From a virus: a DNA stretch of 43,650 bases. Every line of letters begins with the position of its first letter. The first letter of the stretch is position 1. The notes beneath the pieces were generated by a model, which worked only from the letters and a program-made list of their open reading frames with translations, was not told the origin of the DNA and ran no database searches. The stretch is taken from IMG/VR virus record IMGVR_UViG_3300025122_005215, positions 1-43,650 of that record; one strand, given 5' to 3'. Both the position numbers and the translations under genes were made by a program. This document shows, piece by piece, positions 1-41,934 of the stretch.

Positions 1-73
1 GCTTATTGTTAAGATGATATTTTTTATTTCCGTGAGTAAAAGAACACCCAGCGCACAATATATTGTATATCAT
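1..73 (-). CDS. SGNH-like array protein, copy 0 (partial, runs off left edge)
   Basis: Only the first 24 codons are in the window; the rest lies beyond position 1. The translation begins MIYNILCAGCSFTHG, matching the start of the copy at 1664-2422 (MMYNILCAGCSFTHG) and carrying the GCSF block with the presumed nucleophile serine. The start ATG overlaps the TGA stop of the upstream copy (ATGA). It is preceded by an AAAGAG ribosome-binding site contained in the last codons of that copy. The tandem array therefore continues past the window edge. The product name is at family level only. Confidence 0.8.
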   Translation of the reverse strand, partial: MIYNILCAGCSFTHGNKKYHLNNK

Positions 74-864
74 AAATACTCTTTTATTTTATCTGCAATT
101 ATTCTAGTACCTTCTTTATCGGGATGCGTAGAATCCGTTGTCATCTTATTCTTCCTGAACCATTTTGTATTAAAATTTTCTTCATATATATATGTAATAT
201 TTCTTTCCTTACAATAATCGGTTAATTTAGTCTTATACCAATCTTTACAAAATGCATTAAGTAAAGGAAAGGAATTGACTTCATATCGTAAAAATATTAA
301 TTTAATATTACGATATCTCTCTCGAATAAGCTTAACATTAATATGTACTTGATCTATAGCTTTATCTAAATATTTCTCATGATTAGTAAAAATACCCTCC
401 AGATGTTTACCCAGCCCGGGTCGACTATTTAGTACTAACGTATTCCATATATTATTTTTATTTAATGTTGTACCCTGGTACCCATGAGTTATTATTTCTT
501 TCTCCGGGATGTTTTCTCGAATATGAAAATGTGAGTCTCTTTGCTCATTTAAATCTATAGGCTGGCGAGCCGGTGATGGTACTTGATAGATAAAATGTGT
601 TAATTCTATACCTTCATTTTCTCGGACAAAATTCTCTATTAAATGTTTTGTAATTCCAGCGCCTGGTTCACCAATGTTGTATACTTTCCCCGGTAAGTAA
701 TCACAATAAGAATATCCGCCAAAATTATTACCTTCCGGAAGCCTCTCACATTTTGTAAAAGAGCATCCGGCGCTTAATATTTTATATTCTATATTCTCTT
801 TATCAGTACTATTGAAATTAAAATCCCAATTACCACCAGGTACAAAAGTTGTCGTATTATCCAT
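70..864 (-). CDS. SGNH/GDSL hydrolase-like protein, array copy 1
   Basis: A 264-aa member of the local paralogous family. Visible blocks are GCSF at residues 33-36 (candidate nucleophile S35), NIGEPGAGI (glycine block II-like), THFIYQVPSPARQP, KLIFLRYE, YIYEENFNTKWF, and C-terminal DSTHPDKEG with D244 and H247. The order Ser...Gly-rich...DxxH is that of SGNH/GDSL esterases and acyltransferases. The usual GxND block is not obvious. There is no signal peptide or membrane segment. It ends in IADKIKEYL and overlaps the next copy by ATGA. Its start follows AAGGAG encoded by the end of copy 2. The substrate is unknown; O-acyl groups on glycans would fit the family, by inference only. Confidence 0.75.
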   Translation of the reverse strand: MDNTTTFVPGGNWDFNFNSTDKENIEYKILSAGCSFTKCERLPEGNNFGGYSYCDYLPGKVYNIGEPGAGITKHLIENFVRENEGIELTHFIYQVPSPARQPIDLNEQRDSHFHIRENIPEKEIITHGYQGTTLNKNNIWNTLVLNSRPGLGKHLEGIFTNHEKYLDKAIDQVHINVKLIRERYRNIKLIFLRYEVNSFPLLNAFCKDWYKTKLTDYCKERNITYIYEENFNTKWFRKNKMTTDSTHPDKEGTRIIADKIKEYL

Positions 865-1667
865 TACAAATACTCCTTTATTTTATCTGCTATTACTTTA
901 GCACCTGCTTCATTGGTATGTCTCCCATCAGCGCATAAGCCATTTGCATTAAACCATTTTGTATTAAAATTTTCTTCATATATATATGTAATATCATTTT
1001 TCTTACAATAATCTGGTAACATATTTTTATAAAAATCTTTACAAAATTCATAAATTAATGGACGCGAGGATTCCTCGTATCGTAAAAATATAATTTTTAT
1101 ATCAGAATAGGCTTCACGTATAAGATTTACAATTTTTTCGGTTTCGATTAAACCTTTTATTAAGTATCTCTCTTTATGTTCAAAGACTTTTACTAATAGC
1201 TTATGTACATTAAGTTTGTTCATTTTAGTATTAAGTTTATGTTTGGCTGAAGCGTAAGGCACGCCGGTTGGGCCGATACCGCCTCTCTCTAATAATACTT
1301 TTAGTGACATTATCCAGTCCCAATATAAGATATACGTCCCATGACGGCCTGATTGGTCAAAAGATTGGATATATGGAGCTTTTAAAAAATCTTCATCATT
1401 TAATTCGGGCCATAAAATCTGTCGCGATGGGGAAGGTATTTGATAAATAAAATGCGTTACCGCTGTGTTCTTATTATTATGTTTTAACCAGTTAGTCAAA
1501 CCCCAACTCTCAATACCAGAGGCGCTTCGAGCAATATTATGTGCGTCTATCATATCGGGTAAGAACACACAATACGATTCACGGCGGCCATTGAGCCGCT
1601 TTCGTCCCGGCGGCACGATTTCCTTTCGGTTACGTGAAAAAGAGCAACCATTGTTTAAGATAATCAT
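864..1667 (-). CDS. SGNH/GDSL hydrolase-like protein, array copy 2
   Basis: A 267-aa paralogue beginning [11 protein letters not shown] (candidate nucleophile S9), followed by [58 protein letters not shown] and a C-terminal D247-G-R-H250 with HTN in place of the HPN of other copies. It ends in IADKIKEYL. The segment between the Gly block and the FLRYE block is long and unlike other copies, so the family pairs conserved ends with a variable middle. It shares a 43-nt identical stretch with copy 1 (952-994 versus 158-200). Translation is coupled to copy 3 by an ATGA overlap. Function is inferred from motif order only. Confidence 0.75.
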   Translation of the reverse strand: MIILNNGCSFSRNRKEIVPPGRKRLNGRRESYCVFLPDMIDAHNIARSASGIESWGLTNWLKHNNKNTAVTHFIYQIPSPSRQILWPELNDEDFLKAPYIQSFDQSGRHGTYILYWDWIMSLKVLLERGGIGPTGVPYASAKHKLNTKMNKLNVHKLLVKVFEHKERYLIKGLIETEKIVNLIREAYSDIKIIFLRYEESSRPLIYEFCKDFYKNMLPDYCKKNDITYIYEENFNTKWFNANGLCADGRHTNEAGAKVIADKIKEYL

Positions 1668-2422
1668 AAATACTCCTTTATTTTATCTGCTATCAATTTA
1701 GCACCTGCTTCATTGGGATGAAGCCCACATTTGTTCTTTTTAAACCACTGTGTATTAAAATTTTCTTCATATATATATGAAATATCATTATCTTTACAAT
1801 AATCAGCTAGCATGATTTTATAAAAGTCTTTAGTAAATTCACGCAGTAACGGTCTTCTCGTATCCTCATAACGTAAAATTATTATTTTTGCATTAGGTTG
1901 TTTTTTTCGAATTAAATTAACACTAATATCAACCATGGCTACAGCTTTTTCATGATATTGATCTATTTTATCAAAAGCTTGTAATTTAGATTCTCTTAAT
2001 GCAACAAATACTGTTTCTGGGAAGCTGGGATTTGCTGACTTTCGTCTGCCAGCGCTCTCGTAATGGCCTTTGAAGTGCGCAGGGCACTGATAAAAATGGT
2101 TTTCATTAAAATCATTTAGATCTACAGGCTGTCGAACCGGGCTGGGTACTTGATAAACAACATGTGTTAGCTTTTCTTCTTTGTTTTTCCAAAACCATTT
2201 TTTAAAATATTTAGGAGTAATACCACCACCACATCTCCCGATATTCCAAGTTGTCCCGGGTAGAAAATTAGCATACGGATACCACCCCTCTCGCCCAAAT
2301 TTACATTTCATGCCACCACCGCGGTGATCGGGCGTGTCAACAACCGGTTTGAAGCCATCTCGTATTGCTTTAAAATTACCGTGAGTAAAAGAACAACCGG
2401 CGCATAATATATTATACATCAT
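1664..2422 (-). CDS. SGNH/GDSL-like protein, array copy 3 (catalytic Asp missing)
   Basis: A 252-aa paralogue with GCSFTHG near the N-terminus (S11), NIGRCGGGI, THVVYQVPSPVRQP, KIIILRYEDTRRPL and YIYEENFNTQWF. At the C-terminal block the expected D-x-x-H reads C232-G-L-H235, so the triad aspartate is absent while His is kept (LHPNEAG). Either this copy works with a Ser-His dyad or it has lost activity. It is most similar to copy 4: both contain AFDKIDQY and LIRKKQPN. Both ends show the ATGA overlap plus AAGGAG arrangement of the array. Confidence 0.72.
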   Translation of the reverse strand: MMYNILCAGCSFTHGNFKAIRDGFKPVVDTPDHRGGGMKCKFGREGWYPYANFLPGTTWNIGRCGGGITPKYFKKWFWKNKEEKLTHVVYQVPSPVRQPVDLNDFNENHFYQCPAHFKGHYESAGRRKSANPSFPETVFVALRESKLQAFDKIDQYHEKAVAMVDISVNLIRKKQPNAKIIILRYEDTRRPLLREFTKDFYKIMLADYCKDNDISYIYEENFNTQWFKKNKCGLHPNEAGAKLIADKIKEYL

Positions 2423-3276
2423 AAATACTCCTTTATTTTATCTGCTATCAATTTAGCTCCTGCTCTATTGGGATGAACTCCGGGCTTTTCACCCTTACGG
2501 GTGATTTCAAGCGCACCATAATTGTTAAATTTAAACCACTGTGTATTAAAATTTTCTTCATATATATATTTAATATTGTTTTTCTTACAATACTCTGCTA
2601 ACGCGGTTTTATAAAACTTCTTGCTAAATTCATATATTAATGGCCTTTGAGTATGTTCATAGCGTAAAAATATTATTTTCACGTTAGGTTGTTTTTTTCG
2701 AATTAATTTAACATTAATATCAACCTGATCCATAGCTTTTTTATAATATTGATCTATTTTATCAAAAGCTTCCAAGCTGGTATTCTGGCGTTTCGTTAAA
2801 CGACAACCAGATATCTGCATCCATACCGATTTAAGGTCGTCCCTCTTCAGGGTGGATCTAAAATGATTTTCTTCATAATCATTTAAGTCTACAGGTTGGC
2901 GCGTTGGACAGGGCACTTGATAAACGACATGTGTTAAATTTACATCTGGATGTTTTTTAAAAAATATTCTAAAATATTTAGTACAAATACCAATACCGCG
3001 CTTTCCAATATTAAACGATCGACCAGGTAACATACTGGCATACGGATACTCATCATGTCCTTTGTGACAGTGCGTAAAAGAGCAGCCAGCACATAATATA
3101 ACATATTCTTTATCAGAAGGATTTATAACCTCTAAACATACCGGAGTCTTTTCGATAAAGTGCATGTCTCCTAGAAGACGTGATCGTTTATAAACTTTAT
3201 CACTTTCAGGTAAATCGTCATCGGAATTAGCTATATTATTTTGAAAAGCTTTCCACCAGGGACGCTCAGTAGCCAT
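2419..3276 (-). CDS. SGNH/GDSL-like protein, array copy 4 (N-terminal extension, catalytic Asp missing)
   Basis: A 285-aa paralogue with an N-terminal extension of about 55 residues absent from other copies (start MATERPWWKAF) before LCAGCSFTH (S66). It keeps NIGKRGIGI, THVVYQVPCPTRQP, KIIFLRYEHTQRPL and YIYEENFNTQWF. The C-terminal block reads P265-G-V-H268 instead of D-x-x-H, as in the related copy 3. The region before that histidine carries a short insertion (YGALEITRKGEKPG). Unlike copies 1-3 it is not coupled to the gene upstream of it. It has its own late-promoter-like ATTAAATA 5 bp before the ATG. It ends in IADKIKEYL and overlaps copy 3. Confidence 0.72.
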   Translation of the reverse strand: MATERPWWKAFQNNIANSDDDLPESDKVYKRSRLLGDMHFIEKTPVCLEVINPSDKEYVILCAGCSFTHCHKGHDEYPYASMLPGRSFNIGKRGIGICTKYFRIFFKKHPDVNLTHVVYQVPCPTRQPVDLNDYEENHFRSTLKRDDLKSVWMQISGCRLTKRQNTSLEAFDKIDQYYKKAMDQVDINVKLIRKKQPNVKIIFLRYEHTQRPLIYEFSKKFYKTALAEYCKKNNIKYIYEENFNTQWFKFNNYGALEITRKGEKPGVHPNRAGAKLIADKIKEYL

Positions 3277-3281
3277 ATAAT

Positions 3282-3289
3282 TATTTAAT
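3282..3289 (-). promoter_or_regulatory. late-promoter-like octamer before array copy 4
   Basis: Reads ATTAAATA on the minus strand, one base from the T4 late consensus TATAAATA. It ends 5 bp before the ATG at 3276, so the predicted transcription start falls on the start codon. Confidence 0.5.
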
Positions 3290-4031
3290 ACGTTGATTTA
3301 TAATTCGAATAGGTTATTTTATCTGCTATAAGTTTAGCACCAGCTTTATTGGGATGTCTTTTATCCCATGTCAGTTTATTCTTCCTGAACCACTCAGTAT
3401 GAAAATTGTTTTCATTAATATATACAATATTGTTTATATCACAATATTTAGACACAGTTTCTTTATAAAACTTTTTATGAAATTCCGCAATAAACTGTAA
3501 TCTAGTTTCTTCATATCGTAGAAATATTATTTTAATTTCAGGAAATCTGCTACGAATAAGGTCAATATTATATTTTATAGCTCTCATCGCTTTCTCGTAA
3601 AATAAATCCCGACGATCCATAATATCGTGTATTTCTTGCATACTGATAGGAGACCTTTTTCCACTTTTTCCGGTTTTTTTATAGACGAACTTTAACACTG
3701 TCCATAAAAAATCTATATCGTATACTTCACTGTTTTTGCCCGGAGTTACTTTACCATATTTTTTAAAGATATATTGTTTTATTTCTATAGGAGCCGAAAA
3801 AAAATCATCTATTGTATAATCCTTACATAATGGTTGTCTTGTTGGAGATGGTATTTGCCAGATAAAATGAGTTAAATTTATATTTTTAGTTTTATTAGAA
3901 TTTAAAAATTCATTAACCCGTGTTACATCAATACCAGAACCACGATCAGCAATATTATACACGCAATCAGGCAAATACTCACAATATGATGGACTCGTCG
4001 AAAAAGAACATCCATTGTTTAAGATGATCAT
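3285..4031 (-). CDS. SGNH/GDSL hydrolase-like protein, array copy 5 (aberrant C-terminus)
   Basis: A 248-aa paralogue beginning [11 protein letters not shown] (S9), then SYCEYLP, YNIADRGSGID, THFIWQIPSPTRQP, KIIFLRYEETR, YINENNFHTEWF and the catalytic-type D223-K-R-H226 of DKRHPNKAG. All other complete copies end in KIKEYL, but this one ends IADKITYSNYKSTY. The AAGGAG joint is therefore lost, and copy 4 downstream uses its own promoter-like element. The start is preceded by CATAAATA 9 bp upstream. Immediately upstream, in the opposite direction, lies a truncated copy of the folE promoter and 5' end. Confidence 0.74.
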   Translation of the reverse strand: MIILNNGCSFSTSPSYCEYLPDCVYNIADRGSGIDVTRVNEFLNSNKTKNINLTHFIWQIPSPTRQPLCKDYTIDDFFSAPIEIKQYIFKKYGKVTPGKNSEVYDIDFLWTVLKFVYKKTGKSGKRSPISMQEIHDIMDRRDLFYEKAMRAIKYNIDLIRSRFPEIKIIFLRYEETRLQFIAEFHKKFYKETVSKYCDINNIVYINENNFHTEWFRKNKLTWDKRHPNKAGAKLIADKITYSNYKSTY

Positions 4032-4040
4032 ATTAATAAA

Positions 4041-4048
4041 TATTTATG
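4041..4048 (-). promoter_or_regulatory. late-promoter-like octamer before array copy 5
   Basis: Reads CATAAATA on the minus strand, 9 bp before the ATG at 4031. It lies back to back with the early-type promoter at 4056-4083. The same divergent arrangement recurs at 5088-5126. Confidence 0.5.
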
Positions 4049-4055
4049 TTAACCG

Positions 4056-4083
4056 TTGATTTATGAGTCTAGTATACTATAAT
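4056..4083 (+). promoter_or_regulatory. sigma-70-type promoter of the folE 5' fragment
   Basis: TTGATT (4056-4061), a 16-bp spacer and TATAAT (4078-4083). The second in-frame ATG (4091) is 7 bp past the -10 box. This is a diverged duplicate of the folE promoter at 5099-5126, with the same spacer length. Confidence 0.55.
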
Positions 4084-4180
4084 GATTCATATGAACGAGG
4101 TTTTACTTCAATACGCTAATCAAAATCGACCACGGACTCTAGAAGAAAAAGACAATATTATCGATAATGCTGCAAAGTAA
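4082..4180 (+). pseudogene. truncated duplicate of the folE 5' end
   Basis: A 32-codon ORF that matches the first 32 residues of folE except at two positions (MIHMNEVLLQ versus [10 protein letters not shown]) and then stops at TAA exactly where similarity ends. At DNA level 4102-4177 is identical to 5145-5220 (76 nt), while the promoter-proximal part is similar but diverged. It lacks all catalytic residues of GTP cyclohydrolase I, so it is a scar of a duplication or insertion rather than a functional enzyme. A regulatory peptide role cannot be excluded. Confidence 0.85.
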
Positions 4181-4184
4181 TCAA

Positions 4185-4295
4185 CTACCAAAAAGGGTAA
4201 ATATTATCCTTATCATCATCTTTCATTCTCTTGCGAGAAAACCATTGTATAAATTGTGCGTATCTAAGTCTAATTTTAAACCATAATTTCTTCAT
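4185..4295 (-). CDS. small basic 36-aa ORF coupled to array copy 6
   Basis: The ATG overlaps the TGA stop of copy 6 (ATGA) and follows AAGGAG-N5, the same joint that starts copies 0-3. The translation begins [20 protein letters not shown] and then reads RKRMKDDDKDNIYPFW. It is rich in aromatic and basic residues with no clear membrane segment. It sits exactly where another SGNH copy would be expected. It could be a genuine small gene or a chance ORF left by rearrangement; no family is recognised. Confidence 0.4.
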   Translation of the reverse strand: MKKLWFKIRLRYAQFIQWFSRKRMKDDDKDNIYPFW

Positions 4296-5080
4296 AAATA
4301 CTCCTTAATTTTATCTGCTATTAATTTAGCACCAGCTTCATTGGGATGGCGCTTATCCCCGGTTAAATGATTATTCTTAAACCACTCAGTATGGAAATTA
4401 TCTTCACATATATACGTAATATTATTTTCATTGCAATAGTCACTTAAGTGTGTCATATGAAATTTTTCACTAAACTCCCAAACTAGTTGATCATGTCTTC
4501 CGGAATGTGTATACCGTAAAAATATAATTTTAATATCAGGCCATTTTTTACGAACCATAATAACATTTGTATCAATTACAGCTAATGCTTCGTTCGTGTA
4601 GTGCTCCACGTACGGTGCATCCTCTATAAAATCTCTCCACGGAGCCTTACCATCACCAAATTCGAAGATCTTCTGCTTACTATGAATTAGTCGTTTCCGG
4701 TTTTTTAATATATCAGGTATCGTCCAGTAAACCTTACTGTATTGATCTAAAAAGTCAGGCTGTATCATACGACCAAACGATGGTATTTGATAAATAAAAT
4801 GCGTTAAATTAGTGTCTGCAGACAACAAATCTCCTTCATACCTCTTAAAAGGTGATTCACCGTTAATAAGTCTAGGTATTCTTATTGATTCGATACCAGA
4901 ACCAGGATAAGCAATATTATATATTTTTCCCGGAATAAAGTCGCAATATGATACCCATACACCACCCCGTGTCTTTCTCTTTTTATTTTTCGGTCTCGTA
5001 CGATCTGGTATGAACTTAGCATCATCAGGAGACCAATGTGCTGAAAACGAACAACCGTTGTTCAGAATAGTATACTCCAT
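4292..5080 (-). CDS. SGNH/GDSL hydrolase-like protein, array copy 6
   Basis: A 262-aa paralogue with NNGCSFSAH (S11), [51 protein letters not shown] and the C-terminal D242-K-R-H245 of DKRHPNEAG, then IADKIKEYL. All presumed catalytic residues are kept. It is separated from the other copies by the folE fragment and the 36-aa ORF. It is transcribed divergently from folE, with a perfect late octamer TATAAATA 7 bp upstream of the ATG. Family assignment rests on motif order; the substrate is unknown. Confidence 0.76.
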
Positions 5081-5098: not shown

Positions 5099-5126
5099 TT
5101 GACTTATATGTTAATTATATTATAAT
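5099..5126 (+). promoter_or_regulatory. sigma-70-type early promoter of folE
   Basis: TTGACT (5099-5104), 16-bp spacer, TATAAT (5121-5126). The first in-frame ATG (5125) overlaps the -10 box. The second (5134) lies 7 bp downstream, at the expected transcription start. This predicts a leaderless message beginning at the second ATG. Confidence 0.65.
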
Positions 5127-5778
5127 GATTTATATGAATGAGGATTTACTTCAATACGCTAATCAAAATCGACCACGGACTCTAGAAGAAAAAGACAATA
5201 TTATCGATAATGCTGCAAAGGCATATGAAGGTTATATGGATGCTTTAGGGTTTGATTGGAGGAACGATCCAAATAGTTCGAATACACCTAAAAGAGTAGC
5301 AAAAGCATTTGTAAATGACTTAGCAGAGGGATGCTATACAGAGCCTCCGAAAATTACTGCGTTTGATAATATTGATAAGTATGATGGTATTGTATTTCAA
5401 GGTAATATTAAAGTACATTCTTTCTGCTCTCATCATCATTTACCGTTTATAGGCGTTGCGCATGTAGCATATATACCTGGAAGAGATGGTAAAGTAATAG
5501 GCTTAAGTAAATTAAATAGAATCGTTGAATGGTTTGCGAGACGACCACAGGTACAAGAGAATTTAACTATGCAAATACATACACATATAGATGAAGTATG
5601 TGATGAAAATAATGGTGTAGCAGTATTAGTAGAAGCTAATCATATGTGTGCTTGTGTAAGAGGTGTTAAGCATGACAGTACAATGAAAACTGCTAGAATG
5701 TCAGGAGCATTTTTAGATAAAACTGATCTTACAAGACAGGAATTTTATAATTTTGTAAGAGATTTAAAATGTTCCTAA
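5125..5778 (+). CDS. folE: GTP cyclohydrolase I
   Basis: A 217-aa protein of normal FolE length. It converts GTP to 7,8-dihydroneopterin triphosphate, the first step of both folate/pterin and queuosine (7-deazaguanine) synthesis. Visible are [11 protein letters not shown] at about residues 97-107 (zinc Cys and His), [22 protein letters not shown], and [10 protein letters not shown] with the second zinc cysteine. The QE motif and the HMCACVRG loop are typical. The annotated ATG overlaps the -10 box, so the second ATG at 5134 (MNEDLLQY) is the more likely start. QueC lies elsewhere in this window, favouring a deazaguanine role. The first 32 codons are duplicated at 4082-4180. It converges on the gene at 5779. 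Confidence 0.95.
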
Positions 5779-16112: not shown

Positions 16113-18770
16113 ATGTATAGGAACTTAGCATACATACCAAATCAGCGTGTCATGCGTTTATATACATGGGACGAAAACGGTGTTAGGATTGAAACAGATT
16201 GCCCGTATCAACCGTACTTCTATTCGGAGACAAATTCAAATCGATATGATGGAACGTCGTTATACGGTACAAAGCTTCGAAAACATATCGCTAATAGTGA
16301 ACTAGATAGAAGAAAGAAAATTGAAGATCTTAGTGATCATAAAATTTATGAAAATATTTCTCCCTATCAACAATTTTTAGTTGACAGATTTTGGGAAATA
16401 AATGAAACAGATGATTTTACCAAATTTCCTCTTAAGATATGGTTCTTTGATATAGAAACATATTCCCCTGATGAGTTTCCAAAACCTGAAGAAGCAAGTC
16501 ATATGATTAATGTAATTACAGTCTACGATACTGTAGAAAAAATGTATTTTACATGGGGAATTAATAAATATAAACCAAAATCCGACGACGTAAAATATGT
16601 TCACTGTAAGACTGAAACCGAGTTATTACAGAAATTTTTAGATTTTTATTGCAAAGAACGACCTGATATTTTATCCGGTTGGGCAAGTGAGGTTTTTGAT
16701 ATTCCGTATGTAATTAATCGAGTTAGAAACATACTAGGGGAAGACGCTACTCGGTTATTTTCACCGGTACATGATGAAATCATGAAGCCAATCTACCAAC
16801 GAGCGTATCGTGGTAATTTTGGTAAGCAAACATCAAAATACGTGGTTGAGGGGGTATCAATGCTAGATTATCTTGACGTGTATAAAACCTTCAGTCTGGG
16901 CATGAAAGACAGTTATAAGCTAGATAACATAGCTCACATAGAACTAGGAGAGAACAAGGTAGATATAGGAGAAACTAACCTTGCAACGCTGTCTATCAAT
17001 GATTGGGACAAGTTTGTAGATTATAATATTCATGATGTAAGACTGCTGGTTAAACTTGAAGCTAAGCTTATGTACATGGACTTGGCAAGAATGTTATCGT
17101 ACATAGGATTAACCCCATTTAACGCGGCCCTAGGTACTATTAGTACAGTAAACGGTCGTGCAATCGTAGAAGCAAGAAAGTCAGACCCACCACGCATCAT
17201 ACCAACTTTTATAAAAGGGGACGATAGGTCCGGTAAATATGAAGGAGCATATGTAGGTGAGCCAAAACCCGGGTTTCAAGAGAATATTATATCCTTTGAT
17301 GCTAATTCACTATACCCAAGTGTAATGGTTACTCTTAACTTAAGCCCAGAAACTAAGATCGGAAGCATTGTTGGGACTGATAATAATAAAGTATATATAA
17401 AGACAGTAAATAACAAAGATATTGAGATGTCTTATGGGGATTTTAACAAGTGGTGCACTAAGAACGAAATAGCAGTGACAAGAGCAAAAAAACTTTTTTC
17501 ACAAAAAACTAAAGGAATTTTTCCGCGAATCACAGATCACTTCTATGATATAAGAAAAGGAAAAAAACAACAATGGAACGAGGCTCGTGAGGAAAAACAT
17601 CAATTGTCTCTTAAGCTTAAAAAAGAAAAAAATAAAGATACAAAAGAAAAATTAACGAAAGAAATAAAAGAGACCCAATTAAAGATTGATCAGCTTTGGA
17701 TCTGGCAATTCACTTTAAAAATTCTTATTAACCGTATTTATGGTTATTTTGGTAATAAAAACTCTGCTATGGCGGATGGAGACATCGCACGGTCAATTAC
17801 GTTAACAGGTCGCGATGTCATAAAACAAAGCAATATTATTTTAAGAAATTATTTTAAAAGAAACACTAATTTAACTGATAAAGATCTTGAAAAGTCTGAT
17901 CCGATCATTTATAATGACACGGATAGTTCATATTGTACTATTACTCCTCTACTTGACTACAAAGGTATATTACTACATAAGGATAATAATATTAACGAAG
18001 AAGTATATACTCTTGTTCAAGATATAGAAGACGATTTAAACGTGCATATCGAAAAATGGGCACGAAATACCTTGTTAACTAAGGATCCGAGGTTTGTCTT
18101 CAAGAGAGAGTCTATTTGTGATAAAGGCATTTTCTTACAAAAGAAACGGTATGTCTTACATAAACTTGACGACGAAGGAGTTGTTTGTAATAAATTTAAA
18201 TATACTGGTGTAGAAGTGGTTCGAACGACTATGCCTAATGCGATTAAACCATTTGTGAAAAAGATTATTGAGCATATGATTATGACTGAGAATCAAAATA
18301 CTACAAATGAAATCTTCGAAGAGACATATGAAATTTTTAAGTCATTATCTATAAAAGATATTGCATTTGTAATGGGTGTTAAAGAATATGAAAAATACAG
18401 CGTACACACTAAAGGCTGGGTAGTCAAAAAAGGAACACCAATTCATGTTAAGTCCTCTATATATTACAACAAGCTTCTAGATCATTATCATATTTCTAAA
18501 AAGCATGAATATATTAGCTCTGGTGATAAAATAAGATACTTTTATACAGTAACTCCTAACAAGTTTGGTTTAAATTCATTAGGTTTTAAATATGACATAC
18601 CTCCAGAATTCGAACAGGACTTTAAAATAGACTACGAAAAAATGTTTGAAAAAATTGTATATAGTGTTATTGATAGGTTTTATGATAATGTAAATTGGAA
18701 GTCATTTCGACCAGGTCAAGCTGTTAATACAGACTTATTTGATTTCTTTAAAACACCTGTTGCAAATTAA
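16113..18770 (+). CDS. 43: family B DNA polymerase, gp43
   Basis: The replicative polymerase with 3'-5' proofreading, 885 aa against 898 in T4. Exonuclease motifs are FFDIETYS (D113, E115), LSGWASEVFDIPY and YNIHDVRLL. Polymerase motifs are SFDANSLYPSVM near residue 395 (motif A), KILINRIYGYFGNKNS (motif B) and YNDTDSSY near 603 (motif C). All catalytic aspartates are present. It is preceded by its own early-type promoter immediately at the start codon. The downstream order (small gene, uvsX, 41) is that of T4-like cyanophages, apart from inserted genes. Confidence 0.97.
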   Translation: MYRNLAYIPNQRVMRLYTWDENGVRIETDCPYQPYFYSETNSNRYDGTSLYGTKLRKHIANSELDRRKKIEDLSDHKIYENISPYQQFLVDRFWEINETDDFTKFPLKIWFFDIETYSPDEFPKPEEASHMINVITVYDTVEKMYFTWGINKYKPKSDDVKYVHCKTETELLQKFLDFYCKERPDILSGWASEVFDIPYVINRVRNILGEDATRLFSPVHDEIMKPIYQRAYRGNFGKQTSKYVVEGVSMLDYLDVYKTFSLGMKDSYKLDNIAHIELGENKVDIGETNLATLSINDWDKFVDYNIHDVRLLVKLEAKLMYMDLARMLSYIGLTPFNAALGTISTVNGRAIVEARKSDPPRIIPTFIKGDDRSGKYEGAYVGEPKPGFQENIISFDANSLYPSVMVTLNLSPETKIGSIVGTDNNKVYIKTVNNKDIEMSYGDFNKWCTKNEIAVTRAKKLFSQKTKGIFPRITDHFYDIRKGKKQQWNEAREEKHQLSLKLKKEKNKDTKEKLTKEIKETQLKIDQLWIWQFTLKILINRIYGYFGNKNSAMADGDIARSITLTGRDVIKQSNIILRNYFKRNTNLTDKDLEKSDPIIYNDTDSSYCTITPLLDYKGILLHKDNNINEEVYTLVQDIEDDLNVHIEKWARNTLLTKDPRFVFKRESICDKGIFLQKKRYVLHKLDDEGVVCNKFKYTGVEVVRTTMPNAIKPFVKKIIEHMIMTENQNTTNEIFEETYEIFKSLSIKDIAFVMGVKEYEKYSVHTKGWVVKKGTPIHVKSSIYYNKLLDHYHISKKHEYISSGDKIRYFYTVTPNKFGLNSLGFKYDIPPEFEQDFKIDYEKMFEKIVYSVIDRFYDNVNWKSFRPGQAVNTDLFDFFKTPVAN

Positions 18771-19151: not shown

Positions 19152-20240
19152 ATGTCAAATCTTGTCGATAAGGTTTTTGGTAAATTACAAAAGCTTAATA
19201 AAAACGCGACTACTCTTGAAGAAAATACACTTAGTAATGTAACTGAGTGGATTGATACCGGTTGCTTAGTATTAAATTCTATTTTATCTGGATCCCTATA
19301 TGGAGGAGTTCCTAAAGGTAGAATAACAATTTTTGCTGGTGAAGCTCAATGTGGTAAAACTTTTATTTTAAATAAGATTCTTGCCAAGGCACAAAAAACC
19401 GGAATGGTCCCGGTAATATTTGATACTGAAGTCGCAATTGAAAAAGAAGGAGCTGAAAATGTAGGTCTAGATGTTTCAAATGTAAAATATGTTCCTGTTG
19501 ATACTGTTGAACATTGTCGTAATCAAATTATGGCATTCTTAGACGGAGTTGAAGAGGAGCCAGAACTTCACGGAAAATTTATTATATCAATTGATTCTCT
19601 TGGAAATTTAGCATCCTCAAAAGAAATTGCTGATGCTGAGGCTAATAAAGGAGCCATGGACATGGGGCTCAGAGCTAAACAGCTTAAATCCATGATGCGT
19701 ATTATTACATATAAGGCTGCCGTAACCGGTACAACTATTATATGTAGTAATCATACATATGCTGACCCTGGTGCACTCCATCCTACCTTAGTCAAGCAAC
19801 AAGCTGGAGGATCTGGTCCTATGTACATGGCTTCTCTATTAGTCCAAATGGCTGCTAAAAAAGAAAGAACAGACGCAGCAAACGATAACGATGAAGCGTT
19901 AACTGAAAGCAGAAATTATTCAGGAGTTACTCTTCGAATGCTTACAGTAAAAAATAGGTTTATCCCTGCATTTCTACAAGCAGAAGCATATTTAAACTTT
20001 AAAACAGGTTTAGATAAATATTCTGGATTAAAAGAGGTCGCGGTTGCTCATGGAGTTATACAACAAAATGGTTCTACATATAGTATGGGAGATAAAAAAT
20101 TAGGATACTATAAAAATTGGCGCAAAGATGAGGAAGTGTGGAATAATATATTACCTAAGATAGAATCTTCTATAAGTGAGCAATACCGATATGGTAAATC
20201 ATTAGGTGACTCCGCTATATTAGAACAAGAAGATGAGTAA
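19152..20240 (+). CDS. uvsX: UvsX RecA-like recombinase
   Basis: A 362-aa strand-exchange ATPase (T4 UvsX is 391 aa). It shows Walker A GEAQCGKT (63-70), VIFDTEVAIEKEGAEN (the Glu-containing segment), IISIDSLGNLASSKE (Walker B), and CSNHTYADPG with QAGGSGPMYMASL (loop L2 region). It forms presynaptic filaments with UvsY and gp32. Its stop overlaps the start of queC by 8 bp, so queC is translationally coupled to a core recombination gene. Confidence 0.95.
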   Translation: MSNLVDKVFGKLQKLNKNATTLEENTLSNVTEWIDTGCLVLNSILSGSLYGGVPKGRITIFAGEAQCGKTFILNKILAKAQKTGMVPVIFDTEVAIEKEGAENVGLDVSNVKYVPVDTVEHCRNQIMAFLDGVEEEPELHGKFIISIDSLGNLASSKEIADAEANKGAMDMGLRAKQLKSMMRIITYKAAVTGTTIICSNHTYADPGALHPTLVKQQAGGSGPMYMASLLVQMAAKKERTDAANDNDEALTESRNYSGVTLRMLTVKNRFIPAFLQAEAYLNFKTGLDKYSGLKEVAVAHGVIQQNGSTYSMGDKKLGYYKNWRKDEEVWNNILPKIESSISEQYRYGKSLGDSAILEQEDE

Positions 20241-20919
20241 AGCTGTTGTACCTATTTCAGGTGGTTTAGATAGTTCCGTAATACTAAGCATAGTAGCACG
20301 AGCGGCATCAGAAATATATGCAATAACTTTTGATTACGGTCAAAAGCATCGTAAAGAAATCCAATTCGCAGGCTTTCAATTAATTAACTATGACACTATT
20401 GAACAACACAAAATATTAGATATACAATTTTTCAAAAAAATTGCTAATACTTCTTCTTTAACAAACAATAAAATTAAAGTCGCTCATACGAAAGATGTTC
20501 TAGGGGATGCTCAACCTGTTAATTATGTACCATTTAGAAATATGATGATGTTATCGATTGCTTGTTCATATGCAGAATCTGTTGGAGCAGAAACGGTGTA
20601 TCATGGATCCGCTCTCGTAGACAGTCAAGCAGGTTATTGGGACGGTAGTGCAGAATTTTTAGAACAAATTAATCATTTAACTGCTTTAAACCGTAAAAAT
20701 AGAATTAAAATAGAAGCACCATTAATTAATCTATCCAAAAAGGAAATTATTAGGCTCGGACTAGATAACGGTGTAAGATTCGAAGAAACTTGGACGTGTT
20801 ACGAAGGCAAAGATAAAGCTTGTGGTTATTGTACTGCATGTAGTTCTCGTATACAAGGATTTTTAGATAATAAATTAAAAGACCCAATTGAATATGAACG
20901 AACAGACATTCCATGGTGA
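20233..20919 (+). CDS. queC: 7-cyano-7-deazaguanine (preQ0) synthase
   Basis: A 228-aa protein of normal QueC length. It makes preQ0 from 7-carboxy-7-deazaguanine, ammonia and ATP. The PP-loop SGGLDSS lies at 9-15. Further hallmarks are FDYGQKH, VPFRNMMMLSIACSYAE, and a four-cysteine zinc site C189, C197, C200, C203 (CYEGKDKACGYCTAC). It is inserted between uvsX and gene 41, followed by a GMP-reductase-like gene and a class II glutaminase. FolE, four steps earlier in the pathway, is at 5125; QueD and QueE are not in the window. In phages this pathway commonly feeds DNA modification. Confidence 0.95.
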   Translation: MSKAVVPISGGLDSSVILSIVARAASEIYAITFDYGQKHRKEIQFAGFQLINYDTIEQHKILDIQFFKKIANTSSLTNNKIKVAHTKDVLGDAQPVNYVPFRNMMMLSIACSYAESVGAETVYHGSALVDSQAGYWDGSAEFLEQINHLTALNRKNRIKIEAPLINLSKKEIIRLGLDNGVRFEETWTCYEGKDKACGYCTACSSRIQGFLDNKLKDPIEYERTDIPW

Positions 20920-21847
20920 ACTAGAATATTCTGATATTCTATTAGTACCAAAATACAGTCAATTAGATACTCGAAACGCTGCTGACACATCTTTTAAGTT
21001 AGGGAAGTTTTCATTTAACTTACCAGTAGTTCCATCTAATATGAAAACTGTAATAGATATCGAACTATGCAAGCAATTAGATGATAATAATTATTTTTAT
21101 ATTATGCATCGGTTTGATAATGTATTTGAAACAGTACAAAATCTTAACGACCTTAATTGTAATTGTGTGAGCGTTAGTATAGGAGTAAACCAAGAGTCTT
21201 ATGACCAATTGGAAGCTATTATACTTAATAAATATAGAATTGATATTATTACAATTGACGTAGCTCATGGGCATCATTTAAAAGTCAGTAATATGGTTAG
21301 GTTTGTTAAAAAACATTTCCCTGATTCAATAGTTATTGCTGGTAACGTCGGAACATACGATGGGTTTCAATTTTTAGAAGACGCAGGCGCGGATGTTATT
21401 AAAGTAGGAATTGGATCGGGAGTTATTTGTACTACTCGGTATAAAACCGGTTTTGGTACACCTATGTTTTCAACATTATTAAAAATTAGCTCTCACAAAA
21501 CAAAAGCTAAAATAATGGCAGACGGAGGGTGTAAAGAATTTGGAGATATTGCAAAGGCTTTAGTTGCTGGAGCAGATTGCGTAATGGCTGGATCTTTTTT
21601 TGCAGGTTGTATTGACTCACCAGCAAAACATATTAACGGGCATAAACAATATTATGGTAGTACATCATATACTCAAAAAAGAAATAAATTAAATTTTGTT
21701 GAAGGTAAACAAATAGAAATAGACTTAGCACCGGAATATAATATTAGATTAAGAGAGATTGAAAAAGCTCTTAAAAGCTCTATTTCATATGCAGGTTGCA
21801 AAGATTTAAGTTGCCTAAGTGATACAAAGTTCATACAATTAAAGTGA
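20894..21847 (+). CDS. guaC: IMP dehydrogenase/GMP reductase family protein (GMP-reductase-like)
   Basis: A 317-aa TIM-barrel protein without the CBS domains of IMP dehydrogenase, so closer to GuaC (about 347 aa), which converts GMP to IMP and ammonia. Visible are [37 protein letters not shown] with catalytic C179, [21 protein letters not shown], and [11 protein letters not shown]. An in-frame TTG at 20888 is possible but the ATG at 20894 is preferred. The start overlaps queC. Placed between queC and a glutaminase it may tune purine pools or act on a deazaguanine nucleotide; that is inference. Confidence 0.85.
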
Positions 21848-21848
21848 T

Positions 21849-22487
21849 ATGTGTGGAATTTTTGGCTCAACTGATATTAAAACTTTTAGAGAGTTATATA
21901 CAAAAAACTCTGAAAGAGGTAACTTTGTACGTAGCGTAACAATGTTGTTCCCGGGAGGGATGAAAAACGGCATCCGAGTAGCAACAAAATACGAACAAGA
22001 TTTTGACAGACACATAGAAGAAAATACTTTTTGTATATATTATCTAGGACATGTACAATCCCCTACATCAGAAATTAGAACATTTAATACTGATACTTCT
22101 CATCCATTTACGTATAAAAATACATATTTAGCACACAACGGAGTATTACAAAATTTTAATGAATTACAAGAAAAATATGAACTTAAAGGTAAAACAAATA
22201 AGGTTGATAGTAGCGTAATATTACCATTGATATATATGTCTGGTATTAAAAACGCGTTATCAGAACTTGAAGGTACATTTGGATGTTGGATGTATGAACC
22301 AAACATGGGTAGATTACAAATTTTTAGATCAGGATCAACATTATTTACTCATGATAATTCTTTTAGTTCTATTCAATTACCCGGATGGGAATTAGCAGAA
22401 GAAGGAGTAATATATGAATTTAATTTCAGTAAAAATAGATTCTTCCAAACACAAAAGTTTGAATTAAATTCTCCATTTTTTGTATGA
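21849..22487 (+). CDS. stand-alone class II (Ntn) glutamine amidotransferase
   Basis: A 212-aa protein consisting of only a GATase II domain. Cys2 (MCGIFGS) becomes the N-terminal nucleophile. YLGHVQSPT, HPFTYKN, LAHNGVLQNFNEL, KVDSSVI and LEGTFGCWMYE align with the usual glutamine-binding motifs. It would release ammonia from glutamine, but no synthetase, isomerase or transferase domain follows. Phage and archaeal GAT-QueC fusions use the same domain to amidate preQ0 to the archaeosine base. Here glutaminase and QueC are separate genes in one operon with a GuaC-like gene between them. Serving a sugar aminotransferase is an alternative. Confidence 0.85.
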   Translation: MCGIFGSTDIKTFRELYTKNSERGNFVRSVTMLFPGGMKNGIRVATKYEQDFDRHIEENTFCIYYLGHVQSPTSEIRTFNTDTSHPFTYKNTYLAHNGVLQNFNELQEKYELKGKTNKVDSSVILPLIYMSGIKNALSELEGTFGCWMYEPNMGRLQIFRSGSTLFTHDNSFSSIQLPGWELAEEGVIYEFNFSKNRFFQTQKFELNSPFFV

Positions 22488-23185
22488 AAACTCTCATAGC
22501 AGTCGCTACTGAACATACTGAGGCTAGCTTTAAAACAACTAAATTATATAAAAGCTTAACTCATCACGAAGAAAACACTATAACTACTTTCGACTTAAAG
22601 CCTACATATCAAAATACTAGTGGACTATGCGCCGTTTATAATAATTATCTTATCCCGGAAAATTTTAAAAAATATGACTGTATTCTTTTTGTACATGATG
22701 ATGTATTTATTGATAGCATAAATTTCTTAGTAGAAATTCGCAATTCGTTTAAGCGAGGATTTGATATTATCGGTGTCGCTGGAGGAAGTAAGTTACAAGT
22801 TCAAAAACCTTGTTTATGGCATTTATTATGTAAGCCAGATACTATGTCTGGTATAGTGTCACATTATTATAATAATACAGATTATGCTCCTACAATCTTC
22901 GGACAAACACCTAAAGAAGTAATATTATTAGATGGTGTGTTTTTTGCAGTTCGAACAAAATCAATTTCTGAGAAGAAAGTAAAATTTGATACTAATCTTA
23001 AAGGATTCCATTATTATGATTTAAAATTTTCCTTAGATTGTCATTTAGCTGGTTTGCGCTTAACTACAGCTCCTATTCACATCATTCATGAATCACCCGG
23101 GTTACTCAACCACACAGAAGAATATAGCAAATCAGAAGACTACTTCTATAATGCTCTGTTAGAACATGCTAACAAACGAAAGTAA
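22484..23185 (+). CDS. GT-A fold glycosyltransferase (GT2-like)
   Basis: A 233-aa protein with FVHDDVFID (metal-binding DxD-like Asp pair), FDIIGVAGGSKL, VILLDGVFFAVR and FHYYDLKFSLDCHLAGLR. This series is typical of small GT2-like glycosyltransferases seen in bacteria and phages. It overlaps the glutaminase upstream by 4 bp (ATGA) and gene 41 downstream by 20 bp, so it is the last gene of the insert between uvsX and 41. The acceptor could be DNA, a virion protein or a host glycan; the sequence does not say. Confidence 0.75.
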   Translation: MKTLIAVATEHTEASFKTTKLYKSLTHHEENTITTFDLKPTYQNTSGLCAVYNNYLIPENFKKYDCILFVHDDVFIDSINFLVEIRNSFKRGFDIIGVAGGSKLQVQKPCLWHLLCKPDTMSGIVSHYYNNTDYAPTIFGQTPKEVILLDGVFFAVRTKSISEKKVKFDTNLKGFHYYDLKFSLDCHLAGLRLTTAPIHIIHESPGLLNHTEEYSKSEDYFYNALLEHANKRK

Positions 23186-24518
23186 TTACTTAGATATAGA
23201 TTTAGAGTATTTAGAAAAGGTAGTTTTTAAGAATTGTCTTGAAGACGAAGTTTATCTAAATTCTATTATTGATAATCTTAATTATAAATTTTTTAAAAAT
23301 AAAGATTTTCAACAAATAATTAAAATAATACAAGCTCTTTATCGAAAAAATAATAGACGGCCCTCTCTCACTGAATTACAATTATATTTAAATACATCTC
23401 AACTCAAAGAACACTATCAAGCAAGTAAAAAAATTACTGATGTTTTAGAAGTAGAATTATCTAATGATATATTACTTTCTTATACAGAGAAATTCTTACA
23501 AGAACAAGCTGTATTTAATACATTTCTAGAAATCGTTGATAATAAAGAAAGAGATGTAAAAAGTATTTACGATAAATTCTCAAAAGCATGTAATATTTCT
23601 ATTACAACAAATGTAGGTCATAATTATTTTAAAGATGTAGAACAACATATTACCGATCTAACAACACGTGAAGAAAAGATTAAAACCGGGTGGGATTGGC
23701 TTGATGCAAGACTAGGAGGAGGTTTCCTAGAACAGGGCCGTAGTATGTATATTTTTGCTGGGCCTACTAATGTTGGAAAGTCTATATTTTTAAGTAACAT
23801 TGCAAGCCATGCTGCGGCCCAAGATAAAAATGTTTTAGTTGTTTCTCTTGAAATGTCAGAAATGATTTATTGTAAAAGAATTACATCTAAACTTACTGGA
23901 TTACCTGTAAATCATTTAGATGATCACGTAGAAGACTTAAGAGAAAAGGTAGGTAAATTTAAAATAACCCATCCTAGAGCAAATATGATAATTAAAGAAT
24001 TTGCTCCAAGCTCTATTACACCTATCCAGCTTGAAGGTTTTATTAAAAAATTAATTAATAAGAAATTTAAACCTGATATTATAGTACTCGATTATTTAAA
24101 TCTTTTAGCAAGTACATATGGTAATAATTCTTATGAACGAATAAAGAGTATATCTGAACAAATAAGAGCAATGTCGTATACTTTTGAATGCCCAATTATC
24201 TCTGCTACACAAGTAAATAGAACAGGATACGGAACAGGTAATAATGCAGGAGGTCCTGGATTAGAGGCGATTGGAGAAAGTTACGGATTAGGAGCCACTG
24301 CAGATGTTATAGTAAGTATTTGGAGAACAGAAGAAGATGAAGAAGATGATGCGCTTCATATAGGTATTATTAAAAACCGATTTGGTTCTAATACAGGTAG
24401 TACTCGAGTCTCTATAGATTATAATACTCTTACTCTTACGGAGAATAACGATTTAAATGTTAATGAAGATGTAAATACTGCGGAAAATGATGCTGTACAA
24501 TTCGGAAGAGTGATGTAA
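23166..24518 (+). CDS. 41: gp41 replicative helicase/primosome (DnaB-like)
   Basis: A 450-aa hexameric 5'-3' helicase (T4 gp41 is 475 aa). The N-terminal about 150 residues are the DnaB-type helical domain. The RecA-like core has GWDWLDARLGGG, Walker A GPTNVGKS near residue 200, VVSLEMSE, Walker B IIVLDYLNLL, the SATQVNR sensor and IIKNRFGSNTG (Arg finger region). It works with primase gp61 and loader gp59, both in this window. Confidence 0.95.
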   Translation: MLTNESNYLDIDLEYLEKVVFKNCLEDEVYLNSIIDNLNYKFFKNKDFQQIIKIIQALYRKNNRRPSLTELQLYLNTSQLKEHYQASKKITDVLEVELSNDILLSYTEKFLQEQAVFNTFLEIVDNKERDVKSIYDKFSKACNISITTNVGHNYFKDVEQHITDLTTREEKIKTGWDWLDARLGGGFLEQGRSMYIFAGPTNVGKSIFLSNIASHAAAQDKNVLVVSLEMSEMIYCKRITSKLTGLPVNHLDDHVEDLREKVGKFKITHPRANMIIKEFAPSSITPIQLEGFIKKLINKKFKPDIIVLDYLNLLASTYGNNSYERIKSISEQIRAMSYTFECPIISATQVNRTGYGTGNNAGGPGLEAIGESYGLGATADVIVSIWRTEEDEEDDALHIGIIKNRFGSNTGSTRVSIDYNTLTLTENNDLNVNEDVNTAENDAVQFGRVM

Positions 24519-39526: not shown

Positions 39527-41245
39527 GTGCCGAGGCTAAAAAAGGACGATAAATTTTATTTAGGTAATACAAATCTACCTAACCCTAATATGGAGTACGA
39601 GTGGACTCCCGAGATGGTAAAGTCTCTTAAGAAGGCGAGACAGAATATTCTTCATTTTGCAGAAAACTTTTTTCACATTGTTAATCTCGATCAAGGCAAA
39701 ATGTTAATAACTTTATATTCTTATCAAAAAAGAGTATTACGTAGTTTAAGAGATTATAGATTTGTAGCCTGTTTAGCTAGTAGACAGACAGGAAAAACTA
39801 CTATGATGACAATTTATGCTTTATGGATTGCTTGTTTTCAAGACGATCAACGTATATTAATTGTTGCTAATAAAGAACAAACTGCTATTAGTATTTTTTC
39901 ACGAGTTAGACTTGCATACGAGAATTTACCAAATTATTTAAAACCGGGAGTTGTAGAGTATGGTAAAACTTCTATGAAATTAGCCAATGGTAGTAGTATT
40001 GGTATTAGTACTACAAGCTCAGACGCTGGTCGTGGTGAATCTGTTAATGTACTAATTTTAGATGAGTTAGCGTTCATCCCAAATAATCTCGTTGAATCTT
40101 TTTGGAAGTCAGTATATCCTATTATTTCTGCCTCAACAAAATCTAAAATATTTGTAGCATCTACTCCAAACGGTAGTGGTAATTTATTTCATACATTATA
40201 CACAGAAGCAGTAAAAGGAATAAACAACTGGCAAGCAGAAAAAATATTATGGCATGAAGTTCCTGGTCGTGATGAAAAATGGAAACGTGACACAATTAGA
40301 TCTATAGGCAGTGAAGAAGCCTTTGCGCAAGAGTTTGATTGTAAGTTTCTCGATACTGGTGATTCATTTATTGATGAAATCTTTTTTGAAAAATTATTTG
40401 CAAAGACAACCGAACCCACTTATGTGTTCGATGACGGTTGTTATAAGATATGGACTGAGCCCGATAAAGATCATTTATATACTATTGGAGTTGATGTAGC
40501 AGAAGGAGTTGGTCAAAATTTTAGCGTTATACAAGTCTTAGATATAACTGACTTACAAGATATAAAACAAGTCGCAGAATATGCATCTAATGAAATCAAT
40601 CCATTTGAGTTTACTACTAAGGTCCGTGATATATGTTATCACTGGGGAGCACCTCCGGTATTAATAGAAAGAAATAATTGTGGTAGTCAGGTGGTCGATA
40701 ATTTATATCACCAATATAATTATAAAAACATAGTTAATTGGTCTCCTAAAATAGGTCAAATAAAATATGATAGGATAGGAGTGTATGCTCATACTAATAC
40801 CAAATATAAAGGTATTACTAATATGAGATATTGGGTTAATGATATTAAGTGTGTCGATATACAATCAAAACCTGCTGTCGTAGAAATGAAAAATTTTGTA
40901 AGATATCCTAATGGGTCTTGGGCCGCACAACCTGGATTTGAGCATGATGATAGAGTTATGGCAATGGTATGGGCATTATTAATATTAGAAAATAGTGTTA
41001 TACAAAAATATTACAATGTCCTAGAAATTGATGACAATCAACGACCCGCAAAAATAGAACTAGGACCATATATCGATCAAAAGTTTAGCAACTTCTTGCA
41101 AGAGTATAAAATGCAAAATATTGACGATACCTGGAAACCACATGAAGTTCACTTTACAGATATAAATATTTTTAATCAAGACGATGGGCCTAACTATAAT
41201 GCAGATATGGACGAATTAGAAGCACAAGGATATGTTAAAGTATGA
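39527..41245 (+). CDS. 17: terminase large subunit gp17
   Basis: A 572-aa packaging motor (T4 gp17 is 610 aa). The ATPase domain has Walker A-like SRQTGKTTMM near residue 87, VLILDELAFIP (Walker B with catalytic Glu) and ASTPNGSGNLF (motif III). The RNase H-fold nuclease has TIGVDVAEGVGQNFS, IERNNCGSQV and HDDRVMAMVWAL with catalytic acids. The start is GTG, immediately next to the divergent late promoter, leaving no room for a ribosome-binding site. It ends with a 4-bp overlap with the tube-like gene. Confidence 0.95.
   Translation: MPRLKKDDKFYLGNTNLPNPNMEYEWTPEMVKSLKKARQNILHFAENFFHIVNLDQGKMLITLYSYQKRVLRSLRDYRFVACLASRQTGKTTMMTIYALWIACFQDDQRILIVANKEQTAISIFSRVRLAYENLPNYLKPGVVEYGKTSMKLANGSSIGISTTSSDAGRGESVNVLILDELAFIPNNLVESFWKSVYPIISASTKSKIFVASTPNGSGNLFHTLYTEAVKGINNWQAEKILWHEVPGRDEKWKRDTIRSIGSEEAFAQEFDCKFLDTGDSFIDEIFFEKLFAKTTEPTYVFDDGCYKIWTEPDKDHLYTIGVDVAEGVGQNFSVIQVLDITDLQDIKQVAEYASNEINPFEFTTKVRDICYHWGAPPVLIERNNCGSQVVDNLYHQYNYKNIVNWSPKIGQIKYDRIGVYAHTNTKYKGITNMRYWVNDIKCVDIQSKPAVVEMKNFVRYPNGSWAAQPGFEHDDRVMAMVWALLILENSVIQKYYNVLEIDDNQRPAKIELGPYIDQKFSNFLQEYKMQNIDDTWKPHEVHFTDINIFNQDDGPNYNADMDELEAQGYVKV
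41161..41168 (+). promoter_or_regulatory. possible late promoter inside gene 17
   Basis: Exact TATAAATA on the plus strand, 73 bp before the ATG at 41242. Placement within coding sequence makes chance occurrence possible. Confidence 0.3.
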
Positions 41246-41829: not shown

Positions 41830-41934
41830 GTATTTTGCATAATACTCGCACGATTTTGAAAAAATTATTATAAGCAATATTACCGCACCTATAATAATAG
41901 TATACTTAAGATCATCTCCTGGGAACCATTTCAT
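41821..41934 (-). CDS. 37-aa single-TM peptide
   Basis: Starts MKWFPGDDLKYTIIIGAVIL and continues LIIIFSKSCEYYAKYSN. One strongly hydrophobic segment (residues 11-26) predicts a membrane anchor with a short acidic N-terminus. The ATG overlaps the TGA of the preceding 30-aa gene, and the 3' end overlaps the convergent 41242-41829 gene by 9 bp. Tight coupling in a four-gene string supports it. Function unknown; a small lysis or membrane-protein partner are possibilities. Confidence 0.5.
   Translation of the reverse strand: MKWFPGDDLKYTIIIGAVILLIIIFSKSCEYYAKYSN

Follow-up and report, generated by a model that had tools for sequence, protein, structure and literature searches.

A marine T4-like virus with a QueC, GMP reductase and glutaminase cassette probably makes an altered guanine for its own DNA

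Phage systems for 7-deazaguanine DNA modification have been described in several forms. In phage 9g, a class II glutaminase is joined to QueC, a protein of the 7-cyano-7-deazaguanine synthase family, in one chain that is accompanied by a 9g-type DNA guanine transglycosylase (DpdA), whereas Vibrio phage nt-1 and other members of the Schizotequatrovirus cluster possess DpdA2. In the sections that deal with these genes, Hutinet et al. (PMC6884629) consider Gat in its fusion with QueC and credit nt-1 with ArcS. The same sections describe the DNA of the Campylobacter CP220 group (Firehammervirus) as highly modified with 2'-deoxy-7-amido-7-deazaguanosine (dADG) without DpdA, and leave open how some phages, including those of Campylobacter, insert 7-deazaguanines in this way. 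Here we analysed a 43,650-base linear IMG/VR record (IMGVR_UViG_3300025122_005215, hereafter the window), which is a fragment of a marine T4-like virus. The original prediction, made from its sequence, claimed that QueC, a GMP-reductase-like protein and a stand-alone class II glutamine amidotransferase (GAT) are encoded by separate genes of one operon, placed between uvsX and a gp41-like helicase gene, with folE in the same window; all of this was confirmed by profile searches. The virus probably produces guanine in a chemically altered form for use in its own DNA. Our preferred reading, to which we give a probability of roughly 0.42, is that the cassette would be the central portion of a phage system that places 7-deazaguanine in DNA by base exchange, with a Gpt-type phosphoribosyltransferase (PRTase) and the GMP reductase clearing the freed guanine. 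The genes concerned are as follows.

19152-20240, plus strand: UvsX recombinase, the upstream flank of the cassette (phrog_97, E 2e-59)
20233-20919, plus strand: QueC, 7-cyano-7-deazaguanine synthase family (PF06508, E 5.7e-61; above the TIGR00364 cut-off)
20888-21847, plus strand: GMP reductase type 2, GuaC-like (PF00478, E 4.8e-59; PRK05458, 310 bits)
21849-22487, plus strand: stand-alone class II GAT with a Cys2 nucleophile (GATase_6, E 3.7e-12; phrog_12378)
22484-23185, plus strand: glycosyltransferase-like protein, neighbour of the GAT (PF13712, E 2.1e-12)
23166-24518, plus strand: gp41-like replicative helicase, the downstream flank (phrog_19, E 4.4e-77)
5125-5778, plus strand: FolE, GTP cyclohydrolase I, step 1 of the preQ0 pathway (phrog_2197, E 7.6e-60)

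The gene junctions from uvsX to the gp41-like gene are -8, -32, +1, -4 and -20 bases. A search for related GAT loci found 61, among them a near-copy of the window itself and some loci that nearly duplicate each other; one (L080) was dropped for want of a GAT match at 1e-4, which left 37 close loci (identity of at least 60%) and 23 distant ones. Both QueC and GAT are present in 23 of the 37 close and 18 of the 23 distant loci. Where there is room, QueC lies 5' of GAT in 21/21 close and 17/18 distant loci, the sole exception being L070, whose contig begins past that point. The GMP reductase gene separates the two in 23/23 close and 4/18 distant loci that hold both. These counts show that the arrangement is not due to chance. 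The glycosyltransferase-like gene directly follows GAT in all loci with room (35/35 close and 22/22 distant), and its product could be a candidate to act on the modified base.

A PHROGs scan of 50 open reading frames (ORFs) in the window, itself a fragment, found no QueD, QueE or DpdA family. Both queD and queE were found on a near-identical contig, G006, whose identity to the window is 99.97% over 20,957 bases, and 99.6% over 11,025 bases to the left. This contig runs on from the window's sequence, via a repeat array, to QueD (40183-40671), QueE (40815-41585) and a kinase (41606-42364). The same order of QueD, QueE and kinase is found in the related contigs G001 and G002; in G001, QueE was recognized by phrog_2076 (E 4.7e-46) and QueD by PF01242, a model that matches 9 of the 14 long records. 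Radical-SAM matches in 9 of 15 records were not counted as QueE. Thus one virus, represented by the window and G006, encodes FolE, QueD, QueE and QueC, which together make up the whole preQ0 pathway.

The window QueC scores 180.9 bits on TIGR00364, above the curated cut-off of 150.3. Alignment against the QueC proteins of E. coli and B. subtilis showed that it retains SGGLDS, YGQKHRKE, VPFRN and TCY, and thus all residues (SGGxDS, YxQxHxxE, VPxRN and the tyrosines) called essential in the relevant part of PMC13329287. The canonical YPDC motif reads YWDG, and the zinc site is one residue shorter in spacing, C(x)7CxxCxxC compared to C(x)8CxxCxxC, with its four cysteines retained. By the cut-off and the essential motifs (two of the criteria of PF06508 cluster 1), it would be a canonical QueC-type protein. 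Elsewhere in the set, a QueC copy in L057 (3265-4008) lacks the clustered zinc cysteines, and two loci (L056:7598-8386 and L040:5580-6368) have an additional gene between uvsX and queC that is glycosyltransferase-like by eye.

Class II glutamine amidotransferases are marked by Cys2, the HNG motif and a conserved Asp. An alignment of 22 GAT sequences revealed that C2, H96-N97-G98, D120 and R77 are invariant, and the AlphaFold model of the window protein (pLDDT 84.8) has the GlmS glutaminase as its top PDB match (E 6e-10, TMq 0.71). With Cys2, HNG, the conserved Asp and a predicted Ntn fold, the protein appears to be a class II glutamine amidotransferase. The usual glutamine-binding Arg position is occupied by Q70, and R77 is invariant in its clade. 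It belongs to phrog_12378, a GAT group other than that of 9g, and is encoded by a gene separate from queC, so that the fusion that defines the GAT-QueC archaeosine synthase is absent. In nt-1 and Va3, the gene directly after QueC is also a phrog_12378 GAT, annotated as hypothetical (L125:10099-10707 and L089:6001-6609), and QueC followed by a small GAT-like gene occurs in nt-1, Va3, F86, 2.275.O and pf16. The split pair proposed for the window thus stands as separate genes in one operon, but it is not unique to the window: it is old, and present, unremarked, in the cultured phages nt-1, Va3 and pf16. Unlike the window, Va3, 2.275.O, pf16 and nt-1 have no GMP reductase. The part of PMC12028318 on phage 6E351A gives 15% of dG as modified; Vibrio phage 6E35.1a, which we take to be the same phage, has GAT beside queC. 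A pattern search of bacterial and archaeal genomes for GAT gave 26 matches, of which one was a relative (26% identical). Nothing shows that archaeosine would be the product.

The presence of a GMP reductase within the QueC-GAT cassette was the unexpected part of our findings. The gene has a TTG start at 20888 with an in-frame ATG at 20894, and GMP reductase (PDB 1ypf) aligns over the full length of its product (E 1e-70). PRK05458 is the best NCBIfam model, with 310 bits against a cut-off of 344, and TIGR01306, also among the best-scoring models, gives 279 bits against 466; we accordingly class the protein as GMP-reductase-like, the curated type 2 cut-offs being missed. In a distant branch, by contrast, a type 1 GMP reductase lies 5' of GAT (L059, L065, L067, L070 and L071), and the two that were scored, from L071 and L059, pass both PRK05096 (564 and 546 vs 397 bits) and TIGR01305 (535 and 515 vs 492). 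A tree of 25 GMP reductases set types 1 and 2 apart (99/98). Of two separate groups in a tree built from 27 QueC proteins, one holds the type 2 slot phages (100/99) and the other the type 1 phages (100/97), among them L066, whose GMP reductase gene sits elsewhere in its record. Two subfamilies of GMP reductase beside QueC require two acquisitions. A third enzyme, in G011, is of type 2 but groups with L026 and not with the window's clade (97/95); it lies in an operon ordered phrog_19058, formyltransferase, GMP reductase, a 116-residue gene and kinase. Three gains are the simplest count, with old loss a possible alternative, and absences in short records are weak evidence. Recruitment of two subfamilies beside QueC and of a third lineage in a linked operon agrees with the earlier idea of the GuaC-like protein as a pathway component. 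Its repeated addition suggests that the replacement of guanine in DNA needs active disposal of the normal base. A literature search on phage deazaguanine with GMP reductase or IMP dehydrogenase gave, judging from the listings, nothing relevant. In two loci, a 2-oxoglutarate-Fe dioxygenase gene lies between the type 1 GMP reductase and GAT (L071:9150-9791, PF10014 E 2e-48; L067:2380-3021), and one also adjoins the GMP reductase in L179; in L024, an ORF that is methyltransferase-like by eye separates GMP reductase from GAT (519-1124).

The GMP reductase might instead serve ordinary purine salvage, supplying an AT-rich genome with IMP and adenine nucleotides made from the guanine nucleotides of the host, in which case its place beside queC would be incidental. 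Such a role fits the 32% GC of the window, the GMP reductases of other phages (Cr30, Mel-JY01 and TMA), and the IMG/VR contigs L026 and L181-L183, which have a GMP reductase and no QueC match in the flanks searched; one pelagimyophage GMP reductase is reported, in the pertinent part of PMC7029224, with no link to deazaguanine. However, GC content does not separate the phages with and without the gene (means 0.339 vs 0.367, 16 vs 12 loci, p 0.11), so that low GC is not supported as its reason, and GC reaches 38-40% in the type 1 slot phages. Moreover, three lineages carry GMP reductase beside pathway genes. We regard plain salvage as a serious rival, albeit an unlikely one.

The 9g DpdA, the DpdA2 profile and phrog_7068 found no match in 15 records, and phrog_887 gave one chance-like match of 15.6 bits in the same set, to an ORF that reads as a glycosyltransferase. 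The first searches were made without a positive control and the later ones with one, including a rerun of the DpdA2 profile hidden Markov model, which recovered the held-out control pf16 (E 8.7e-68), whereas the 164 marine loci gave no match below E 0.8. A protein of Flavobacterium phage immuto that is annotated as DNA guanine transglycosylase (DpdA) had escaped the earlier searches, as 9g DpdA matches it at E 0.93. With the immuto protein as query, strong matches were obtained in G001 (E 5e-60), G011 and G012. The matched family, phrog_19058, is of unknown function in PHROGs. Thus no dpdA was found with the known families, and a que-linked family annotated as such in immuto, without significant similarity to 9g DpdA or DpdA2, is present in relatives of the window.

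The phrog_19058 family was found at 34 viral loci, including G001, G003 and G012, and in 24 of 50,697 phage records (15 Campylobacter, 5 Bacillus and 4 Flavobacterium). Among 29 loci with room, a kinase gene lies within 2.5 kb after it in all and a formyltransferase gene in 26. It is located inside a queC-queD-queE-folE stretch in BSP7 and near folE-queE-queD in phiST (a weaker match, E 2.8e-16). In CP220, a 41% identical protein is encoded between an HD phosphohydrolase and a kinase; this phage also has QueC, FolE, QueE, a second kinase and a PRTase, and in this resembles the window's relatives. Compared to the window, the genes of the CP220 group are scattered, no Campylobacter phage is among the 27 records matching GAT, and Campylobacter is not among the matches listed in the GMP reductase searches. 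In Campylobacter phages, dADG reportedly replaces 100% or nearly all of the normal nucleoside. The immuto cluster unites QueD, QueE, PRTase, FolE, phrog_19058, formyltransferase and kinase, the same families as in G001, but adds QueF, and the annotation of the 24 kb examined names no QueC, GAT or GMP reductase. The formyltransferase-like gene (phrog_9240), which adjoins phrog_19058 in immuto and in marine phages (L093:12230-12799 and L220:15076-15603), might provide a further base-tailoring step.

An early reading, in which the lack of DpdA pointed to a modified dNTP made without base exchange, was demoted to a rival once phrog_19058 was found in G001, G011 and G012. By this route, the PRTase would join the deazaguanine to phosphoribosyl pyrophosphate, kinases and ribonucleotide reductase would convert the product to a dNTP for the polymerase to insert, and the GMP reductase would lower the competing dGTP. 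In its favor, the PRTase of G014 lies inside a queD-queE-PRTase-kinase operon, and QueE is 5' of a kinase in 18/18 testable loci (19 were found, and L173 begins inside the kinase). The queE-linked kinase of G001 has matches in 15 of the 50,697 phage records, each of them from a Campylobacter phage and 29-31% identical across 63% of the query; an AlphaFold model of the kinase had low confidence (pLDDT 38.6). G001 also has a class II-type ribonucleotide reductase, dNMP-kinase-like genes occur in relatives of the window, and a modified dGTP is proposed for Campylobacter phages in the corresponding part of PMC6884629. Nevertheless, the same phages have the candidate transglycosylase phrog_19058, and the PRTases resemble guanine and xanthine enzymes, their closest solved relatives being a purine phosphoribosyltransferase and the xanthine-guanine enzyme XGPRT. 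Of 14 records, 4 have the PRTase and 10 lack it; it is also encoded on 29 contigs that belong to the window's clade. This nucleotide-first route is again a serious rival that we consider doubtful.

The G014 PRTase matches 30 phage records: 15 Campylobacter, 5 Cellulophaga, 4 Flavobacterium, 2 Brevundimonas, 2 unnamed, 1 Escherichia-labelled and 1 Salmonella-labelled, the last two being records of 2.3 and 4.8 kb. QueE was confirmed in the PRTase-bearing phages CP220, phiST and immuto. Brevundimonas phage StAshley (L216:680-5495) carries ribonucleotide reductase beta and alpha, dNMP kinase, folE and PRTase; the annotation of the parts examined shows no further que gene.

For phages with the pathway but without DpdA, the relevant part of PMC6884629 proposes that preQ0 is raised for host queuosine, which would leave the phage's own DNA unmodified. 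The canonical tRNA-guanine transglycosylase (PF01702) is absent from all 14 records, while the same model matches 14/14 control genomes; it is uninformative on DpdA, finding neither 9g DpdA nor nt-1 DpdA2. Such support of tRNA gives no evident task to the kinase, PRTase and GMP reductase, and the cassette sits in the replication operon; we consider this reading very improbable. Nucleoside deoxyribosyltransferase (PF05014) was likewise found in 0/14 records.

According to the preferred base-exchange reading, the GAT would supply glutamine-derived ammonia to QueC, the two acting as a two-subunit enzyme whose product would be preQ0 or 7-amido-7-deazaguanine. The phrog_19058 protein, as a candidate transglycosylase, would swap guanine for the deazaguanine base, on DNA or on deoxynucleotides. 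Each exchange would release one guanine, which the Gpt-type enzyme would convert to GMP and the GMP reductase to IMP, so that the purine is recycled; with guanine and dGTP kept low, the exchange would be driven forward and the modified base would prevail. A guanine PRTase and a GMP reductase might thus have been added because base exchange frees guanine to recycle. No new enzyme specificity has to be assumed, and the explanation accounts for the operon, for GMP reductase having been gained repeatedly and for the links of the PRTase and phrog_19058. It recalls cyanophage S-2L, in which, as outlined in part of PMC8065100, the phage enzyme DatZ clears away the normal nucleotide in favor of the altered one. 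However, DatZ acts on dATP, and GMP reductase, whose link here is inferred, would act on GMP. The kinase that constantly neighbors phrog_19058, together with the nearly complete replacement reported for Campylobacter phages, makes exchange on nucleotides more likely than exchange on DNA. In a more specific form, phrog_19058 would be an unrecognized guanine transglycosylase acting with its neighboring kinase on dGMP, the kinase carrying the product to the dNTP and the Gpt-type enzyme and GMP reductase disposing of guanine; taken as a whole, we think this form unlikely.

Several observations weigh against base exchange. Comparison of phrog_19058 by hhalign with 9g DpdA and DpdA2 gave probabilities of 1.2% and 7.7%, compared to 0.4% for an unrelated control, and no tRNA-guanine transglycosylase is among its PDB profile matches; as profile comparison gives no link to DpdA, we speak of a hypothetical transglycosylase. 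Its identity comes from one depositor's annotation, the que linkage and a by-eye likeness (LDNxxFEL and HLLG vs LDSGAF and HGFG in 9g). Moreover, the family is not in the window's own contigs, nor in G002 (132 kb searched). The window GAT has Gln where the 9g GAT domain has Arg. The PRTase gap noted above counts here too, and in the window's clade the gene lies apart from the que genes; such absences are weak, because PF00156, with 5 matches over 32 records (one a 291-residue frame in pf16), has none in CP220, whose PRTase is found by tblastn. PF00478 was found in 15 of the 34 records searched, and the absence of GMP reductase from the other 19 (15 IMG/VR records, many of them short, and 4 cultured phages) makes it an accessory part. 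Furthermore, no que gene is annotated near the GMP reductases of Cr30, Mel-JY01 and TMA, type 1 phages have other small genes between GMP reductase and QueC or GAT, and in G012 the GMP reductase sits outside the QueC-GAT slot. Altogether, of the system originally predicted, the separate QueC and GAT genes of one operon, the preQ0 pathway in the same virus and a GuaC-like component are supported, and an archaeosine product is not.

The window carries a T4-like replication block with a recombination mediator, helicase, late sigma factor, SbcD/SbcC-like nuclease, UvsX, DnaB-like helicase, gp32-type protein and primase. A polymerase (16113-18770) was named from its translation. The minus strand at 70-5080 has a tandem of six related ORFs of 248-285 residues, in which a PHROG search gave only a weak endonuclease match in one (phrog_945, E 1.2e-4); G002 has a longer version of this array in the same place. 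Two 105-base stretches of the window (4073-4177 and 5116-5220) match copies in G006 at 96%, and this short repeat takes in the folE start.

The comparison offers testable candidates common to cultured Campylobacter phages and abundant marine phages, namely phrog_19058 and its kinase, the PRTase of Gpt type, QueC paired with a stand-alone glutaminase, and the GMP reductase that was recruited repeatedly. A simple idea also emerges, that base exchange produces free guanine, which must be cleared. If the transglycosylase reading is true, phrog_19058 would supply the insertion step that is missing from the dADG-bearing Campylobacter phages and from a large marine group of T4-like phages, with near-complete replacement of G.

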